7,536 nt of DNA from Candidatus Hydrogenedentes bacterium CG07_land_8_20_14_0_80_42_17 (GTDB lineage: Bacteria > UBA8481), in assembly GCA_002780065.1 (NCBI GenBank), contig PEWQ01000118.1, positions 1 to 7,536 on the forward strand, in the 5' to 3' direction. Made by a program: the position numbers and the translations under genes. The stretch's first letter is position 1. Each line of letters opens with the position of its first letter. Shown piece by piece: positions 1 to 7,536 of the stretch. Below the pieces are notes generated by a model. It worked only from the letters and a program-made list of their open reading frames with translations. It was not told where the DNA came from and did no database searches.

Positions 1-456
1 AAAATTTTCCGTGGCTCTGGATATCAATCTTATTATTCTTGCTTGATCATCTCCCTGCAACAATTTCTGTTTCTCAGAAAATATAAAAATTTTAAATTGC
101 TTAAGTAATTTAAAACCTTGAGGACCTAGAGGTGAAACAATCACATCGGAAGAACCAATCGTGCCGCCGCAATAAAATTCCTCTCCTAAATTGACGATTC
201 TTTCATTCACCCGAATACTGCCGTCGGCGACAACACCTAGCGTAGCCACATTTCCATTTCTTCGTTTGCTTCGCTCATTATCCTTTCTCATCATTCTGCC
301 GCCTCGGTCTATAAGAACTGTATCTCCCTCATGAAATATTTCTGAACCCAAAGCTGTTTCAAGTTTAATTTGACCACTAGATATTGCAACTCCGGTTCGA
401 GCACCGGACAAATTAAAAAGCAATGCCATCACTGCAAAGCTATAGAAAAAATTCAT
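1..456 (-). CDS. Unrecognised secreted protein, 3' end cut by window edge
   Basis: The frame is open for 152 codons from an ATG at 456 to position 1 with no stop, so the gene continues outside the window. Translation begins MNFFYSFAVMALLFNLSGAR: a hydrophobic stretch at residues 3-16 and a possible signal-peptidase site after Ser-Gly-Ala (about residue 19) suggest an exported protein, although the N-terminus lacks the usual lysines or arginines. The visible remainder is mixed beta-like sequence with a basic patch around residues 53-67 and one Cys near residue 95. I recognise no family. The ATG overlaps the stop of the upstream FecR-domain gene as ATGA, and an AGGAAG ribosome site sits just ahead, so translation is probably coupled to it. 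Its position at the end of an export operon suggests a periplasmic or surface accessory role; that is inference only. Confidence 0.72.
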   Translation of the reverse strand, partial: MNFFYSFAVMALLFNLSGARTGVAISSGQIKLETALGSEIFHEGDTVLIDRGGRMMRKDNERSKRRNGNVATLGVVADGSIRVNERIVNLGEEFYCGGTIGSSDVIVSPLGPQGFKLLKQFKIFIFSEKQKLLQGDDQARIIRLISRATENF

Positions 457-962
457 TCTTCCTGAACTGCTATCAGAAATTCAGCGCGCTCAAAATTATT
501 CGGCTCGCATATCACATTCGGAGTAGTGACAACTGCAAGAGTAGGGCGATTCATTTCAGTATCTCTCTCTTCAAAAACAACAAAAGCAGTTCCTTTAGAG
601 AGATGCAATGTCAAACCTGTTCTGCCTTCCAAAGCTCTTCTGCTCTCCAAAATTGAATTAGGATTTAATCGAACCTTTACTTCCGTTCCTGCGTCAATTT
701 CTGCTCGAGATTTTTCACCTGTTCGAATAGATTCTCCGATTTCGATTCTGTCTCCAGCTTTCGCAATTCTTTTCAAGCCGGCAGAAAGGATCTCAACATT
801 GCCTTCGAATTTTTGAACTACAGCAGTGAAATTTTCTTCAGGTAATTTTTCAGAATTTATCGATTGAGTTTTACGCTCAAACGAATTCCACAGAAAAATC
901 GCTTGAGCTCCAATAATAACTATCAGCACGACTACAGTCCACGACACACCCCTCCGGCTCAA
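453..962 (-). CDS. Membrane-anchored FecR-domain protein
   Basis: A 169-residue protein. Residues 8-24 form one hydrophobic segment after a short Arg-rich N-terminus (SRRG), so the rest should lie in the periplasm, tethered to the inner membrane. Residues ~47-167 resemble a FecR domain: Gly-Asp then 'SIRTGEKSRAEI' (78-89), a 'RLNPNSILE' strand (98-106), a 'LHLSKGTAFV' strand (119-128), and a 'VVTTP' strand (144-148) near the end. Members of this family occur both as TonB-type sigma-regulator partners and as stand-alone proteins beside export clusters. No sigma factor is visible here, so an envelope or export accessory role is more likely. The start is a TTG overlapping the kinase-like gene's stop (TTGA). 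It is supported by a strong ribosome site upstream, whereas the in-frame GTG at codon 6 has its purine tract too close. It ends directly after the domain and overlaps the next gene as ATGA. Confidence 0.8.
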   Translation of the reverse strand: MSRRGVSWTVVVLIVIIGAQAIFLWNSFERKTQSINSEKLPEENFTAVVQKFEGNVEILSAGLKRIAKAGDRIEIGESIRTGEKSRAEIDAGTEVKVRLNPNSILESRRALEGRTGLTLHLSKGTAFVVFEERDTEMNRPTLAVVTTPNVICEPNNFERAEFLIAVQEE

Positions 963-3094
963 ATAATCGGCTCCTCCTTGGTGTAGTGATAATACCTGTC
1001 GGAATAATTATAGCCGTAAGCATGCCCGATTCCTCTAACATCGTTCATCACCAATCCAAGTATTTTTCCTCCAACATCTTCAATCGATCTAATGACCTGC
1101 TCAACCGAGTCTTCCGAAGCTCGGCCGAGCATATAAACTAAAAGAACAGAATCAGCACTTCGCGCGAAAGATAGAGCATCGGATACCGGCGCCGCCGGAG
1201 GCACATCGACTAGAATAAAATCATAATCAGTCAAAGCATCCCTGAATTTAGCGATAAGTTGAGGAGAAGATATTATCGCAGGAATCGAGGAGTCATTCAA
1301 ATTTCCCGACGAAATAATTTTTAATCCGGTAATTGAAGTCTCCTGAACCGCATCTTTAAATTCAATCTCCTCCCGAAACAATTCAGCGACACCTGGAGCT
1401 TCAGGCACTTCAAATATTTTGTGTAGCGTTGGTCTCCTAAGATTTGCCGAGATTACGAGAACAGTTCTTCCTAATTCCGCAAGTGCGATAGAGAGATTAG
1501 AAATAGTTGTAGATTTTCCTTCTTGAGGTCCGGTACTTGTGATCACAATAAATTTGTCCATCTGCGCATCAATCTTTTGAGCCAGCGAACGGTATGCTTC
1601 GGCTTCAGGTGAAAACGGGCGAATCTTTACGACCATACGCATTGAAGTCGCTTCTGCTTGACTTGACAGAGGATCAGTAAAGCATGGAATTATCCCAAGA
1701 ACTTTTTTACCCAAAAGAGATTCCGCAGAGCCCGGAGTTTTTATTGAAGAGTCAAGCGATTCAACAATAAAAATCGCCGCAAGTGCGACCGTAAGTCCGA
1801 GCAGAGAGTCCATTATCAAAGTGCGGTGCAAAGCAGGATTATTCGGCGCCGTCGGTTTCGCCGCCGGACGTATCCATTCCGCTATTTGGTCCTGTCCCAT
1901 CTTTTCCAAATTCAAAATCGATTTCTTTTTTATCAAATCCGTGAGCAATGATTCTCGTATTGCCAGCTCTGCTTTAAATCTGCTCAAAGCTAGTTGAGAC
2001 GGAACAACTGTCTCTCCAATCAGAGCATAGATATCGATCTCAGGAGCAGAAGATTCGACAGGTTTTGGAAGCAAAGCCAATTTCGATTCAATTTGAGCAT
2101 CAGCAATTCTGTACCATTGCGCTATCGCGTTTATCAATTCAATTGAAGCTGAAACGAGTTCATGTTTTGCGATTGCGCGGTCAGGATGAAACTCAGTCAT
2201 CGTTCTCGATAAAAGTTTGTACCTCTGCATCTTCTCAATCCATCTTCCCCGCGCCGCTTCAAGATTATCTCTGGAAACGCCGCTAAGCTCACGTGACAAT
2301 TCATCGGGAATAGCCGCGAAAAGTCCTGTCACTGCCAGTTCCATCTCTTCAAGCGAAGGCAATAAGCCTGCTTCGATCGTATCGCTGATTGCATCTACCG
2401 CAAGAGCGCGCTCCCGCAATAAATTTCGCGAATTCAATATTCTCGTTCTCATGCCTGGATCAGGAGATTCGGTCGACGGCAATGCTCCGATTTTTTTTTC
2501 TAGGTATGCCACTATCGTTCGGTATTTAGATGTTTCCTCTTCGGTGTTTGCAATTTCGTTGTCTATGTATTGCAACATCGTTTTGTTCACGGAGACCATA
2601 GATTCGTAAAGCGACGAGACATAAGCAGGACCAAATGCATTCGCGAGTTTGTATGCAAATTCAAGATTGCCCGAAGTGACACTGATCCTGATTATTCTGC
2701 GTTCAGACAGACGAGTTGCGCTCGATGAATTTAGAATAGTCTCAAACAGATTCAGCCATTCAGGTGTTTTAGGAGGAGGAACGGCTCCCAATATTCCTTG
2801 AGATATCACCGCAGAAATACACGCATCCGATCTCGCATGTTCGATATAAAAATCGAAATTCATTTCAGAAAGCCTGCGGCGTTGAGAAGGCTGAAGATTG
2901 CGAATCTGCTCGGACGGAGGATCAGGATTGATAAGGATATCGACGAACGCTGTGTAGATAGGAGGCCGATTCGATTCGTAAACCAAAGCTGTCACGGTAA
3001 CACTGACAAATGAAAGAAGAGCCAGCATCCATCTCTTTTTTAAAATCGCCCAGTAATCCAAAAGTCCAAAGGGCCGGCGCTTTTCTCCGTCCAT
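959..3094 (-). CDS. Wzc-like polysaccharide co-polymerase / BY-kinase-fold protein with altered Walker A'
   Basis: A 711-residue protein with the full Wzc layout. It has an N-terminal Wzz domain with membrane segment one at ~22-38, a long helical, probably coiled-coil periplasmic part (~40-405), a Pro-rich stretch (KPTAPNNP, 413-420) before membrane segment two (~427-445), and a cytoplasmic P-loop domain (~485-685). Walker A is GPQEGKSTT (522-530, Lys527) and Walker B is FILVDVPP (626-633, Asp630). The C-terminus carries a tyrosine cluster (Tyr693, 695, 697, 701, 702, 704), the usual autophosphorylation site. In this family the protein controls chain length and gates export with the Wza-type protein encoded just upstream. 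Odd points: Walker A', normally DAD before LRRP, is Ser549-Ala550-Asn551; and the oligomerisation motif ExxRxxR reads EAYRSLA (499-505), with the last Arg replaced. It may therefore be weakly active or inactive as a kinase. The start overlaps the upstream stop as TGATG. Confidence 0.9.
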   Translation of the reverse strand: MDGEKRRPFGLLDYWAILKKRWMLALLSFVSVTVTALVYESNRPPIYTAFVDILINPDPPSEQIRNLQPSQRRRLSEMNFDFYIEHARSDACISAVISQGILGAVPPPKTPEWLNLFETILNSSSATRLSERRIIRISVTSGNLEFAYKLANAFGPAYVSSLYESMVSVNKTMLQYIDNEIANTEEETSKYRTIVAYLEKKIGALPSTESPDPGMRTRILNSRNLLRERALAVDAISDTIEAGLLPSLEEMELAVTGLFAAIPDELSRELSGVSRDNLEAARGRWIEKMQRYKLLSRTMTEFHPDRAIAKHELVSASIELINAIAQWYRIADAQIESKLALLPKPVESSAPEIDIYALIGETVVPSQLALSRFKAELAIRESLLTDLIKKKSILNLEKMGQDQIAEWIRPAAKPTAPNNPALHRTLIMDSLLGLTVALAAIFIVESLDSSIKTPGSAESLLGKKVLGIIPCFTDPLSSQAEATSMRMVVKIRPFSPEAEAYRSLAQKIDAQMDKFIVITSTGPQEGKSTTISNLSIALAELGRTVLVISANLRRPTLHKIFEVPEAPGVAELFREEIEFKDAVQETSITGLKIISSGNLNDSSIPAIISSPQLIAKFRDALTDYDFILVDVPPAAPVSDALSFARSADSVLLVYMLGRASEDSVEQVIRSIEDVGGKILGLVMNDVRGIGHAYGYNYSDRYYHYTKEEPII
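971..979 (-). promoter_or_regulatory. Strong ribosome binding site deciding a TTG start
   Basis: On the minus strand this reads AAGGAGGAG, 8 bases ahead of the TTG at 962. It lies inside the last codons of the kinase-like gene (Lys-Glu-Glu before Pro-Ile-Ile-stop). It is the best Shine-Dalgarno match noticed in the window and supports TTG as the FecR-gene start. Confidence 0.7.
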
Positions 3095-4653
3095 CAGCGG
3101 GTGTTCTCGAGATTATTAATGTCATAGATCGTACTTGCCGTCCCTGCGATAGGAGCAAGAATTTGATTCCAGAACTGAAGCGAATATGAAATAACTCCTT
3201 CCGGAACAAAAATAACATCTCCTCCTTCCAGCATCATGTTCTGGCTAAGATCACCGTCAAGAAGCGCTTTGACATTTACTCGATACACTCTCGGATTGTC
3301 AGGCCAGCCTCGAACAATTCTCACGTCGTAAAGTCTTGCATGAAAAGTTGACGGATTTGCAAGTGTAAGCGCTTGCAAAAGCGAAAAGCTTCCGCTCCGA
3401 GTAAATAGTCCCGGACTGCCGACTTTTCCTAATACGTAAACTCCAATCTCTGATAATTCCGGAATGACAAGCGCGTCTCCATTATTTAATATTTTGTCCT
3501 CGCGCGCGTCGCCCTGGAACCACAGCTTATTTATATTGCAAGGAGTAACAGTTCCGTCCTGACGCAAAATAAACGCCGAAGCAATATTTGCTTTAGCAGT
3601 CCACGTATTTCCTTCAGAGAGCACATCACGCACTCGAAGAATTCTGCTCTTCGGAAACACAAGCTTGCCGGTCTTATTGAAGGCGCCAAGCATACTTATC
3701 GTCTGACCCATACCAGGCACAATTACAAGGTCTCCAGGCTCCATAAGAATATTCTGGTCGATTCTTTGTCCGCGAAGAACAGAAGCGACATCACAAATAA
3801 TAGTTTGAGTCCCGCGCGCAACTGTCACTGCTGAAAGGTCTGCGCGCTCGTGATTCCATTTTGACATAATCAAAATATCGAGAAGCCGCGTTGGACGGTC
3901 GATGCGGAATGAGCCCGGAGCGTCAACTTCTCCAACCGCTACCACATCTTTTCCACCAAACTCAGGAATAGAAACAGTCACTGCAGGTTCAATTAAATAT
4001 TTTTGCAATCTCTGCCTGATTCTGTATGCGGCCTGATCAACTGTAAGCCCTTCTATCTTCACCGAACCTGCAAGCTTTACGACAATCGAGCCGTCTCGAG
4101 CTACACGCGACTGACCGCTGATGTTTTCTTGCCCCCAAACAAAAACGTCCACAACATCACCCGCTCGAATTTTGTAAGCATCAGAATCGGCAGACGGCGG
4201 TTCATCTTCTTTTACAACAGAATTCTTCTCTTCAGTTGCAATCTTCACGGCTTCTGAATTATTTACTTCATTTACAGTTTTCACGTCTAATGGTTTTGCA
4301 TTTGCATCTTCACTCGCATTTTGAGTCAAAGGTCTTTCGGATTCTATAACAATAGGATTGGCGATAGGCAGAGGTAATACTTCCGAAAAATTTTGACTGG
4401 AAGGATCATTTTTTTCCAAAAGAAATGGAGAAGTCGAAAGTGTATCTTTATTTACACTAGAGTCACTAGAGGTTCGGCTTGATATGCGATGCGATGAAGA
4501 ACCATTTGCCCAGATCCATGATTTAACAAACGAAAAGGTTTCAAAATTATTTGCAACTCCTTCAATGCCAAGAAGCACAATTGCAATCAAAAGCGGAACC
4601 ATAGGTTCAAACAAAATTCGTTTTAATTTAGCCTGCATTTTATTCACAAACAT
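3094..4653 (-). CDS. Wza-like polysaccharide export protein (Poly_export + SLBB repeats)
   Basis: A 519-residue protein. An N-terminal hydrophobic segment (~17-34) follows a basic start (KLKR). A Ser/Asn/Glu-rich, probably disordered linker covers ~50-155. The Poly_export domain (~157-230) contains 'YKIRAGDVVDVFVWGQENIS' and 'VARDGSIVVKLAGSVKIEGL'. Three SLBB-type repeats follow: ~236-314 ending GDLVIVPG, ~318-398 ending GDALVIPE, and ~404-485 ending GDVIFVPEG. The C-terminal stretch 486-508 is amphipathic, like the helix that forms the outer-membrane pore in Wza. Unlike Wza there is no lipobox Cys near the N-terminus; the first Cys is residue 287. It is therefore either cleaved by a standard signal peptidase (perhaps after Gly-Val-Ala, 32-34) or stays anchored. 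The long linker is longer than in typical Wza. Start choice is uncertain: TAGG touches the ATG at 4653, while a GTG two codons later has AGGA at better spacing. It is co-encoded with the Wzc-like protein, its expected partner. Confidence 0.9.
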   Translation of the reverse strand: MFVNKMQAKLKRILFEPMVPLLIAIVLLGIEGVANNFETFSFVKSWIWANGSSSHRISSRTSSDSSVNKDTLSTSPFLLEKNDPSSQNFSEVLPLPIANPIVIESERPLTQNASEDANAKPLDVKTVNEVNNSEAVKIATEEKNSVVKEDEPPSADSDAYKIRAGDVVDVFVWGQENISGQSRVARDGSIVVKLAGSVKIEGLTVDQAAYRIRQRLQKYLIEPAVTVSIPEFGGKDVVAVGEVDAPGSFRIDRPTRLLDILIMSKWNHERADLSAVTVARGTQTIICDVASVLRGQRIDQNILMEPGDLVIVPGMGQTISMLGAFNKTGKLVFPKSRILRVRDVLSEGNTWTAKANIASAFILRQDGTVTPCNINKLWFQGDAREDKILNNGDALVIPELSEIGVYVLGKVGSPGLFTRSGSFSLLQALTLANPSTFHARLYDVRIVRGWPDNPRVYRVNVKALLDGDLSQNMMLEGGDVIFVPEGVISYSLQFWNQILAPIAGTASTIYDINNLENTR

Positions 4654-4719
4654 CCTATGGTAATTTATCGTTAATTATTCAATGTGCAATACAAAAATGA
4701 ATGCAATGATAGTAACTGC

Positions 4720-4920
4720 TCAGCGCAGTTGTTTATATCCCTTTCTTTCCATCTTTCCCCATTGTCTTGCGCCTATCAGAGCCGAAAATGTGCCTTTCAT
4801 TCGCCACCATGCATTAATCTGCCTGTAGCCAAGATTTTCCACAATCGCTACAAAAAAGAGCTGAAGAAGATCAGAAAGTTTTTTATATCTTCTAAAGCAA
4901 AGTTCTTCAAGTCCGATATC
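4720..4920 (-). pseudogene. C-terminal remnant of a processive family-2 glycosyltransferase
   Basis: The minus-strand frame starting GAT at 4920 is open to a TGA at 4722-4720, giving about 66 codons. It encodes a recognisable tail: 'FRRYKKLSDLLQLFFVAIVE', then 'NLGYRQINAWWRMKGTFSAL' and 'GARQWGKMERKGYKQLR'. The order 'hydrophobic helix - ENxGYRQ - WWRxKG - WGKMERKG' is, from memory, how membrane-bound GT2 synthases of exopolysaccharide clusters end. There is no start codon with a plausible ribosome site, and the same frame is closed by a TGA just upstream (about 4943). The catalytic domain (DxD, Q/RxxRW) is completely absent. The fragment sits +1 out of frame behind the receiver-domain start and overlaps it, which is best explained by a deletion joining two genes. 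The exact left edge of the homology (probably 4905-4925) cannot be fixed by eye. It was probably once the polymerising enzyme or an accessory synthase of this locus. Confidence 0.68.
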
Positions 4921-5039
4921 GCAGAGTTTCCGTCTCCTGCCTCAAAGATTTCAAACTCATCTGAGCTTCCAAGTATTTCACCGATGATCGACAAAACCGT
5001 TTCATCATCATCAACAACAACTATTTTTTTCTTTGTCAT
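4848..5039 (-). pseudogene. Truncated response-regulator receiver domain
   Basis: The 63-codon frame begins MTKKKIVVVDDDETVLSIIG, the classic first strand and acidic pocket (Asp10-Asp12) of a CheY-like receiver domain. It continues through helix 1 and strand 2 (DEFEIFEAGDGNSAI, ending near residue 42). After about residue 45 the similarity stops: the phospho-acceptor Asp, the Thr/Ser and the Lys of the active site are all missing. The remaining residues, to a TAG at 4850-4848, are the glycosyltransferase remnant read in the wrong frame. A functional phosphorelay protein cannot be made from this. No clear ribosome site is visible ahead of the ATG, and 50 bases separate it from the lipoprotein stop. 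The intact ancestor could have been a stand-alone receiver or the N-terminus of a larger regulator. Confidence 0.72.
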
Positions 5040-5089
5040 TATTTTAGTATCTATCTAAAGCCATAAAATTCTATTCTACTAACAATAAA

Positions 5090-5854
5090 CTATTTTTCAA
5101 CCGAAATGTCATCGAGATAAAAAGTTCCGGTCAATGCAGTCTCAGAATTCGAGTCCGCAAAGAATAAAATCTCTGTAATCTCTTTCCAATCGGCAATAGA
5201 CGTAAATTTAGTCAATGGGATTCTGTATTGCTGCCATTTGGTTCCGATATCGGAAAGCATTACCGAACTGACTTCATTCTTCGATCTCAATTCCACAATG
5301 AGTTTCGAACTGCATGCTTCTCTGCCTTCAGCGGCACGTAGCATGAACGTCAAAGATGTATAGCTTGAAATATCCACAGCGTCTGCAGGTTTGAAACCAA
5401 GCCTCAGCCATGCTCCGGCACAAGCCTGGGCTCCCTCTTCCAGAGCGTATGAGACCTTTAGTGAGTTTCCTTTAAATCCGTACCTGTTCAATGATTCTAG
5501 AGAAACTGCAGCATTCAAGTTTGAATGACCATTACTGCTCTTCCACGATCCGACAGGAAATTCGATCTCATTGCCTCTGCATCCGTCAAGGTCAAAATCA
5601 GCCAAAAGAAAAGCATTTTGCGGCGGAGAATCGAGATCCACCGAACTCTGTATGGAATTAATGTTTTCGTTATTCAGCAATTCAGGATTCGGTAAATCGA
5701 AAGAAAGCATAATCGCTTCAGGACTTTGCTCTTGAGCTAATACAGACTGAAGAGATTTTGTTATCGGAGGATCGGCGTATTCTCCGATCGGAGTCGATTT
5801 TAAACATCCTCCCGCTATAACAAGAAAAGCTAAAATTAAATAGTTGCGGTTCAT
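5090..5854 (-). CDS. Lipoprotein with jelly-roll carbohydrate-binding-like domain
   Basis: A 254-residue protein from the ATG at 5854. That start gives a textbook lipoprotein signal, MNRNYLILAFLVIAGGC, with the lipidated Cys at residue 17. A GTG 18 bases further upstream would add six residues inside the previous gene and is less likely. After a low-complexity linker (~18-80), residues ~82-254 look like a beta-sandwich of the CBM11/CIA30/galactose-binding type: 'LLADFDLDG' at the start, 'GFKGNSLKVSYAL' mid-way, 'ISSYTSLTFMLRA' and 'IVELRS' strands, then 'KWQQYRIPLTKF' and a closing 'GTFYLDDISVEK'. Three further Cys residues (~92, 145, 181) could form a disulfide. The fold suggests sugar binding at the inner or outer membrane; no catalytic domain is attached. 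It overlaps the upstream TPR gene as ATGA, so the two are probably translated together. Confidence 0.82.
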   Translation of the reverse strand: MNRNYLILAFLVIAGGCLKSTPIGEYADPPITKSLQSVLAQEQSPEAIMLSFDLPNPELLNNENINSIQSSVDLDSPPQNAFLLADFDLDGCRGNEIEFPVGSWKSSNGHSNLNAAVSLESLNRYGFKGNSLKVSYALEEGAQACAGAWLRLGFKPADAVDISSYTSLTFMLRAAEGREACSSKLIVELRSKNEVSSVMLSDIGTKWQQYRIPLTKFTSIADWKEITEILFFADSNSETALTGTFYLDDISVEK

Positions 5855-7308
5855 CGGACAGGTTTCTCCCACGCAGATTTAATTGCCCTCTCTGTCGTAT
5901 TTTTTCTATCACTTAAACGCATAGCCTCTTCGAACCTGTTTTGAGCCTCGAAATTCTGTCCCAGAGCCAGATGCGTCAAACCTGCATTCAGATAATATGA
6001 AGACGTTCTATGAAGCTGAGCAGGAGGTCTATTAAGATATTGAATAGCCATCTGATAATTTCTCGATCTCAATCCTGCAGTGCCAAGATTATATCTGTAA
6101 ACGCCATCGAGCGGATCTATTTTCACAGCATTCTTGAAATATTCTATCGCCTCTTCGTATTTGCCGAGCCGATAATAACAATCGCCTATCGCACAGATAA
6201 CTTCCGGTTTGGACAGCATTTCTTCAGGCAATTTAATTAGAATTGAAAGCCTTGAGTTTGCCATCTGCCGGTCTCTTTCATTCAAATCCTGTAAAAGAAG
6301 TTCTTTAATTTTTTCTTGAGCAAACTTTGCAAGCCTGTCTTCAGGATATACTCTTATTAAATAATCGTAATACTTGATTGCAAGATACCTTTCTCCATTC
6401 ATTCTATATTTTTCTGCAGTTCGGAATAACGTACCTTTATGAGTAGGATCCGCCAATCCTAACCAATAAGCAGTTCCAAGAGCAGTCAAAACCAAAATAG
6501 CTATAGAAATTAATAAACGTTTAATGAACCTTTTTCTTCTTGTTGAAGGAAGTTCGTCCTCATCAAGGTATATTTTTTGTTCATCAGAAATTTTTTCTTC
6601 TTGAACCGATTCTTGATCTTTCGATTTCAAAAATTCCGCTCTGCCGTATGACTGTTCATTTTGAAACTGCGATTGATCTGTGGAACCTGCCGGGATGAAT
6701 GTCGAATAATTTTCGCGAATCTTCTCTCCAATCCATTTGAAATTTTCGTCAAGCTCTTCCGAATAAAACTGCATCCATCTCCCCAGAGGCGGATACCATA
6801 TTAAATCGTTCGGTGTTATGCCGTGAGCATTAATCGCAATATCAACCTCGTTCGAAGTCAAAGGTCCGTATACTTTCTGTTCGGAAGTTAAAAAGATATA
6901 CCACTCTCGATAAGGTTTATCCGGTTTGAAATAATCTGCTTCGCGCCAAGCTATGAAATGCCTTAAGAAATCAATATCCTCAGGCGTAATTTCGAGAAAC
7001 TTCATTGCAAGAAAATAGCGAAAACCCGGGACCCACGATGGTGTTGCGTGTAGAAGTTCACCTTTAATTTTTTTGAAAGGGCGGTCCTTAGGCAGATCCA
7101 AAATCGCTTCTAAAATGAGTCCTCTAGGCGACAGAGGAAGCTCACCCGTCACAAGATTGCATCTGCCTGCCAAACCGTTTTCGTTTAGACCGGTTGAATG
7201 GCCTTCGAGCTTAATATTTCTTGGACCGAAAAGTCGAAAGCCAACAGACAGCGTCACAAGTCTCAATGCCCTTTGCTGAATAAAACCTTCATTATCGCTC
7301 GAATTCAA
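5851..7308 (-). CDS. PilZ-like / GYF_2 / transmembrane / TPR protein
   Basis: A 485-residue protein. Residues ~9-125 resemble a PilZ domain: 'QQRALRLVTLSVGFRLFG', then 'GLNENGLAG' where PilZ has [D/N]xSxxG. Both c-di-GMP motifs are degenerate (RxxxR reads Gln12-x-x-x-Arg16; DxSxxG reads Gly40-x-Asn42-x-x-Gly45), so ligand binding is doubtful. Residues ~136-187 fit a GYF_2 domain (WYIFL...YGPLT...DLIWYPPLGRWMQF), a fold that usually binds peptide or protein partners. An acidic linker and an RRKRFIKR stop lead into one membrane segment (~263-284). By the positive-inside rule the PilZ/GYF half is cytoplasmic and the rest periplasmic. Residues ~290-335 look like a TPR-type helical pair; ~366-465 contain three or so TPRs, including 'CAIGDCYYRLGKYEEAIEYF'. 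The start is TTG at 7308 with AGGGTG five bases ahead and an in-frame stop upstream. It may scaffold the export machine. Confidence 0.83.
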   Translation of the reverse strand: MNSSDNEGFIQQRALRLVTLSVGFRLFGPRNIKLEGHSTGLNENGLAGRCNLVTGELPLSPRGLILEAILDLPKDRPFKKIKGELLHATPSWVPGFRYFLAMKFLEITPEDIDFLRHFIAWREADYFKPDKPYREWYIFLTSEQKVYGPLTSNEVDIAINAHGITPNDLIWYPPLGRWMQFYSEELDENFKWIGEKIRENYSTFIPAGSTDQSQFQNEQSYGRAEFLKSKDQESVQEEKISDEQKIYLDEDELPSTRRKRFIKRLLISIAILVLTALGTAYWLGLADPTHKGTLFRTAEKYRMNGERYLAIKYYDYLIRVYPEDRLAKFAQEKIKELLLQDLNERDRQMANSRLSILIKLPEEMLSKPEVICAIGDCYYRLGKYEEAIEYFKNAVKIDPLDGVYRYNLGTAGLRSRNYQMAIQYLNRPPAQLHRTSSYYLNAGLTHLALGQNFEAQNRFEEAMRLSDRKNTTERAIKSAWEKPVR

Positions 7309-7328
7309 GTTAACACCCTGTTAAAAAG

Positions 7329-7355
7329 AAAATACTTCTTATCGAAAAAAGTCAA
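7329..7355 (-). promoter_or_regulatory. Candidate sigma70-type promoter for the operon
   Basis: On the minus strand TTGACT (7350-7355) is followed after 15 bases by TATTTT (7329-7334). The -35 is a good match, the -10 matches four of six, and the spacer is short. A start of transcription near 7322 would leave a leader of only about 14 bases, holding just the AGGGTG ribosome site. AT-rich DNA produces such matches by chance, so this is weak. Confidence 0.28.
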
Positions 7356-7437
7356 TATTATTAAGTCTGAAGTTTCTTGAAAAAATATTGAAGGAAGGCA
7401 CACGCCCTCGTGCGTGCACAACAAGTTCGCAGCGTTT

Positions 7438-7509
7438 GCACAGGCGAGAAGTCCATTGGCGCGAGGCGTCCATTGACGCGAAGCATCCATTGATGCGAAG
7501 CGCCTGTGC
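7438..7509. repeat. 9-bp inverted repeat enclosing the tandem array
   Basis: GCACAGGCG at 7438-7446 and its exact complement CGCCTGTGC at 7501-7509 bracket the three 17-bp repeats; the right arm overlaps the last base of copy three. The whole could form a cruciform or, if transcribed, a long-loop hairpin, or mark the ends of a small repeated intergenic element. No transposase or target-site duplication is apparent. Confidence 0.7.
7451..7501. repeat. Three tandem copies of a 17-bp repeat
   Basis: Copies at 7451-7467 (GTCCATTGGCGCGAGGC), 7468-7484 (GTCCATTGACGCGAAGC) and 7485-7501 (ATCCATTGATGCGAAGC) differ at one to four positions. The unit length is not a multiple of three, which argues against a coding role. 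A degenerate partial copy (TCCATGACGAG) may follow at 7511-7521. The array is visibly more GC-rich than the surrounding intergenic DNA. Confidence 0.85.
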
Positions 7510-7536
7510 CTCCATGACGAGTTATAATATTTGAAA

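Follow-up and report, generated by a model that had tools for sequence, protein, structure and literature searches.

A likely deletion scar between receiver and glycosyltransferase remnants in an exopolysaccharide operon of an uncultured bacterium

A stretch of 320 bp within an exopolysaccharide operon is likely to be the scar left when about 2.5 kb were lost in one deletion, which took place in the organism and is not an artefact. The stretch lies in the window (the whole of contig C84, 7536 bp), which stems from a metagenome-type assembly of 2.39 Mb, a fragmented bin of 207 contigs that is 87% complete. The main genes of the window are all encoded on the minus strand and are close-packed in the order TPR protein, lipoprotein, scar, SLBB export protein, Wzc-type kinase, FecR protein, and an ORF that runs off the contig (Table 1). 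As stated for the export genes in an earlier, sequence-only reading, the flanking genes are whole, the TPR and lipoprotein genes on one side and the SLBB and Wzc genes on the other. That reading had put forward both a real loss and a misjoin of the assembly; the analysis supports its deletion interpretation and favours a real loss. The N-terminal ~120 residues of the TPR protein appear PilZ-like by eye, with no PilZ match in Pfam at E values up to 1.

Table 1. Features of the window around the scar
Feature	Coordinates	Strand	Evidence
FecR-domain protein, intact	453..962	-	PF04773, E 7.9e-5, just below cut-off
Wzc-type chain-length/tyrosine autokinase, intact	959..3094	-	Wzz and AAA_31; TIGR01007, E 6.9e-35, above cut-off; 43% identity to G001 orthologue
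Poly_export/SLBB outer-membrane export protein, intact	3094..4653	-	PF02563, E 9.8e-21; SLBB_2, E 2e-20; orthologue in G001 60% identical
C-terminal remnant of GT2 membrane polysaccharide synthase, last ~63 residues and stop	4720..4911	-	Homology and GT2 profile
Probable deletion junction, sequence GGACTTGAAGAACTTT	4899..4914	-	Receiver match ends at 4902, GT2 match starts at 4911
Receiver (Response_reg) N-terminal remnant, first ~46 residues	4902..5039	-	PF00072 match; alignment with intact receivers
Lipoprotein with CBM30-like domain, intact, upstream operon neighbour of scar	5090..5872	-	ORF and similarity to CBM30 part in G131
TPR protein with GYF_2-like segment, intact	5851..7308	-	Pfam

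The two remnants and their junction

The first part of the scar, in the direction of transcription, is an ORF of 63 amino acids that is open from its ATG (5039-4848, minus strand) and matched positions 1-41 of 111 of the Response_reg profile PF00072 (E 2e-4). This agrees with the receiver start of about 45 residues claimed before. A receiver profile search of the genome matched the same remnant at PF00072 positions 1-40, with the match ending at 4902; past the match, the ORF continues out of homology to the stop at 4848. The match of 5039-4902 stops ahead of the region that holds the phospho-acceptor Asp, and with only positions 1-41 of 111 present the remnant lacks the complete fold of a receiver with this residue.

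The frame 4914-4720 (minus strand) translates into GLEELCFRRYKKLSDLLQLFFVAIVENLGYRQINAWWRMKGTFSALIGARQWGKMERKGYKQLR followed by a stop. Apart from its own genome, this translation matched GT2 C-termini in 20 genomes (E <= 0.01), all belonging to other families; the best match had an E value of 7.6e-20 at 52% identity, and another reached 55%. In nearly all of these genomes the match runs from remnant residue 2 onward, which places its start at 4911. In a profile of full-length relatives, the remnant occupies columns 405-468 of 470. The proposed GT2 end of some 60 residues, which hinged on GT2 similarity of the 4720-4920 translation, is therefore borne out by strong matches. All intact relatives have the GT2 catalytic motifs on the upstream side of the break, and the DxD and Q/RxxRW motifs of a functional GT2 synthase are absent from the columns left. 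Taken together with the end of the receiver match before the Asp region, this confirms the claimed loss of both catalytic parts. No internal stop interrupts the GT2 remnant and its conserved E, G, Y, R, Q, W, and G positions are kept, which fits a recent event. Searches with the remnant alone against Pfam, NCBIfam, and PDB sequences gave nothing useful; a Pfam match is missing because the Pfam GT2 models end before this C-terminus. With PgaC/BcsA-like GT2 membrane synthases, the family shares the GT2 fold family and a C-terminal membrane segment (PF13641 and PF13632 in intact relatives), whereas the C-terminal motif of the remnant's family is distinct and its product is putative.

The receiver and GT2 homologies overlap by ~10-13 nt at the junction, whose sequence yields DLKNF of the receiver or GLEEL of the GT2, depending on the frame. 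The reading frames of the two remnants differ by one, as expected from the out-of-frame joining noted earlier, indicating that neither remnant encodes a working protein. Each fragment corresponds to part of a longer known protein, as in a pseudogene pair, and the scar resembles ordinary bacterial deletion pseudogenes in that two gene fragments are fused out of frame, the DNA between them is gone, and the flanks are intact. Ordinary deletion pseudogenes of bacteria arise by illegitimate recombination at short direct repeats. The overlap of homologies fits either such recombination or slippage during replication, in both cases at a short direct repeat, and the deletion perhaps occurred in this way; the scar differs from the ordinary case in that the repeat is putative here. 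Neither a mobile-element remnant, a long repeat, nor inverted repeats were seen at the junction, nor a recombinase nearby, and a mobile-element or repeat cause was rejected on these grounds. The scar was also found to hold no terminator-like site or polar terminator.

Intact relatives and the extent of the likely loss

In intact relatives, the GT2 gene (~470 aa) is commonly located behind a gene for a HEAT-repeat protein that has a membrane segment at its N-terminus, and this gene is itself preceded by a gene for a receiver or receiver-bearing protein. We surveyed 80 loci from named genomes, 46 of which were scored with a co-directional upstream ORF by simple gene picking; at some of the unscored loci, long shadow ORFs in high-GC DNA masked the true genes. 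The gene directly upstream of GT2 was HEAT-type in 36 of the 46 scored loci, and the next gene was receiver-bearing in 16 of these 36. Of the nine receiver-HEAT-GT2 loci, eight had their homologous break points 2451-2943 bp apart, and the ninth 5241 bp; the median distance over all nine was 2563 bp. By this comparison, the lost segment probably measured about 2.5 kb and comprised the C-terminal 60% of the receiver, a whole HEAT gene, and the N-terminal 86% of GT2. The previous estimate of more than 1 kb thus holds with regard to size, but the HEAT gene had been overlooked as a third lost gene. No HEAT match occurs between 4720 and 5039; we infer the loss because the relatives carry a HEAT gene between receiver and GT2.

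The ancestral order, as drawn from distant phyla, would have been lipoprotein, receiver, membrane HEAT-repeat protein, GT2 synthase, SLBB export protein, and Wzc kinase. The deletion would then have started at receiver codon ~46, removed the HEAT gene, and stopped short of the last ~63 codons of the GT2 gene. The short layout of the scar, which might have been taken for conserved functional genes if relatives shared it, is present in none of them; in the intact loci, the receiver and GT2 genes are complete and a HEAT gene is present as well. The receiver-HEAT-GT2 loci of Neomarinimicrobiota, Gemmatimonadota, Bdellovibrio, Elusimicrobia, Paenibacillus, and others agree with the window in the receiver-then-GT2 order, the orientation, and the GT2 C-terminus. 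They differ from it in having the HEAT gene and both catalytic parts, which the window lacks, and in position, as the module of the window is directly upstream of the SLBB and Wzc genes. The order of receiver, membrane HEAT-repeat protein, and GT2 synthase recurs across many phyla (L135-L154, L190-L269), and no description of such a module was found in the literature searched. In genome G131, the GT2 gene is directly preceded by a gene whose CBM30 part is 28% identical (E 2e-10) to the lipoprotein of the window, a likeness that supports an original functional link.

In the only same-order genome compared (G001), SLBB and Wzc are kept at 60% and 43% identity, respectively, together with two further ORFs that are like the FecR gene and the last ORF in size and place. 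Upstream of its SLBB operon is a radical-SAM gene (named by eye from the sequence) and no receiver/HEAT/GT2 module, and a GT2 of the remnant's family was not found in this genome. The module upstream of SLBB may therefore be an accessory gained or lost among relatives. A scan of the genome collection with the SLBB protein revealed no close relative.

Alternative explanations and other putative decay in the genome

The genes would be intact in the living organism if the assembler had skipped ~2.5 kb or joined two strain variants. The fragmentation and incompleteness of the bin speak for such a misjoin, as do the remnants without secondary decay; no contig below 4.6 kb was seen in the bin, so that an orphan fragment of 2.5 kb may have been dropped. 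However, no repeat such as an assembler would need is present at the junction, and the junction region was found once in the genome, indicating that there is no long repeat that would force a misjoin. The missing GT2 part was not found on other contigs by profile search of the 87%-complete genome, where a HEAT search yielded weak generic matches only. Furthermore, no comparable clear internal break occurred in 33 ABC-transporter and 21 histidine-kinase ATPase (HATPase) domains of the bin, indicating that misjoins are not rampant in it; internal breaks were seen in 2 of its 27 receivers. Pseudogene load was judged here from a sample and these three large domain families. Based on these results we consider a misjoin unlikely.

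Very unlikely, in our view, is a deletion that is real and still segregating, with some cells carrying the intact module and some the deleted form through strain variation or phase-like switching. The young appearance of the remnants and the nature of the bin as a population consensus would suit it, but the assembly contains no alternative allele, and neither inverted repeats nor a recombinase are near the junction. We give hardly any credence to the idea that the short ORFs encode small proteins that still function, such as a truncated receiver in the role of a decoy: the 63-aa ORF, albeit open from ATG, is without the Asp and two thirds of the fold, ends in out-of-frame residues, and has its layout in no relative. 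A real deletion within the operon remains the preferred reading.

A second truncated receiver is encoded elsewhere in the genome (G000:C207:6464-6670, minus strand; L102), matching the first 38 positions of PF00072 (E 3.4e-5). A Fis-type helix-turn-helix, of which the last third is left (HTH_8 positions 28-42 of 42, E 2e-4), follows this receiver start in another frame, and an intact regulator of 450 residues (L070) matches both pieces, at residues 4-39 and 424-445. The second scar reads as a putative internal deletion of ~1.15 kb in an NtrC-type response regulator. It has the same form as the scar in the window and counts in favour of a real deletion there. The two breaks both lie at receiver position 37-41, probably by chance; the odds of such a coincidence for two random breaks were estimated at roughly one in ten. 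A search for a sequence common to both scars gave TCGGAMTTGA, which was not convincing. On contig C18 (L186), the region 1917-2969 (minus strand), which is without a long ORF, is similar to both flanking ORFs (193-1923 and 3272-5107) and is possibly a decayed tandem paralogue. Short tandem-like repeated words, with translations such as MDASRQWTPRANG-like and RPLTRGACASKAALVIFEIANWKV-like, occur in some non-genic stretches and contig ends, namely at 7305-7536 of the window and on contigs C34 and C175 (L105, L112).

Polysaccharide production and the receiver-HEAT-GT2 module

The genome holds a second SLBB/Wzc locus on contig C140 and 11 PF13641-type glycosyltransferase matches, and polysaccharide export need therefore not be silenced. 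The intact export genes that remain next to the scar could serve glycosyltransferases encoded elsewhere in the genome; they should not count as proof of a working synthase-type polysaccharide locus. Tentatively, the scar may record how a lineage naturally lost a widespread module and kept the adjoining export genes; in this module, a membrane-anchored HEAT-repeat protein would relay the action of a receiver to a GT2 polymer synthase. As a single event, it would be ordinary gene decay in an uncultured bacterium, and gene loss of an ordinary kind; the search for its intact form brought out a receiver-HEAT-GT2 gene order that recurs in many phyla.
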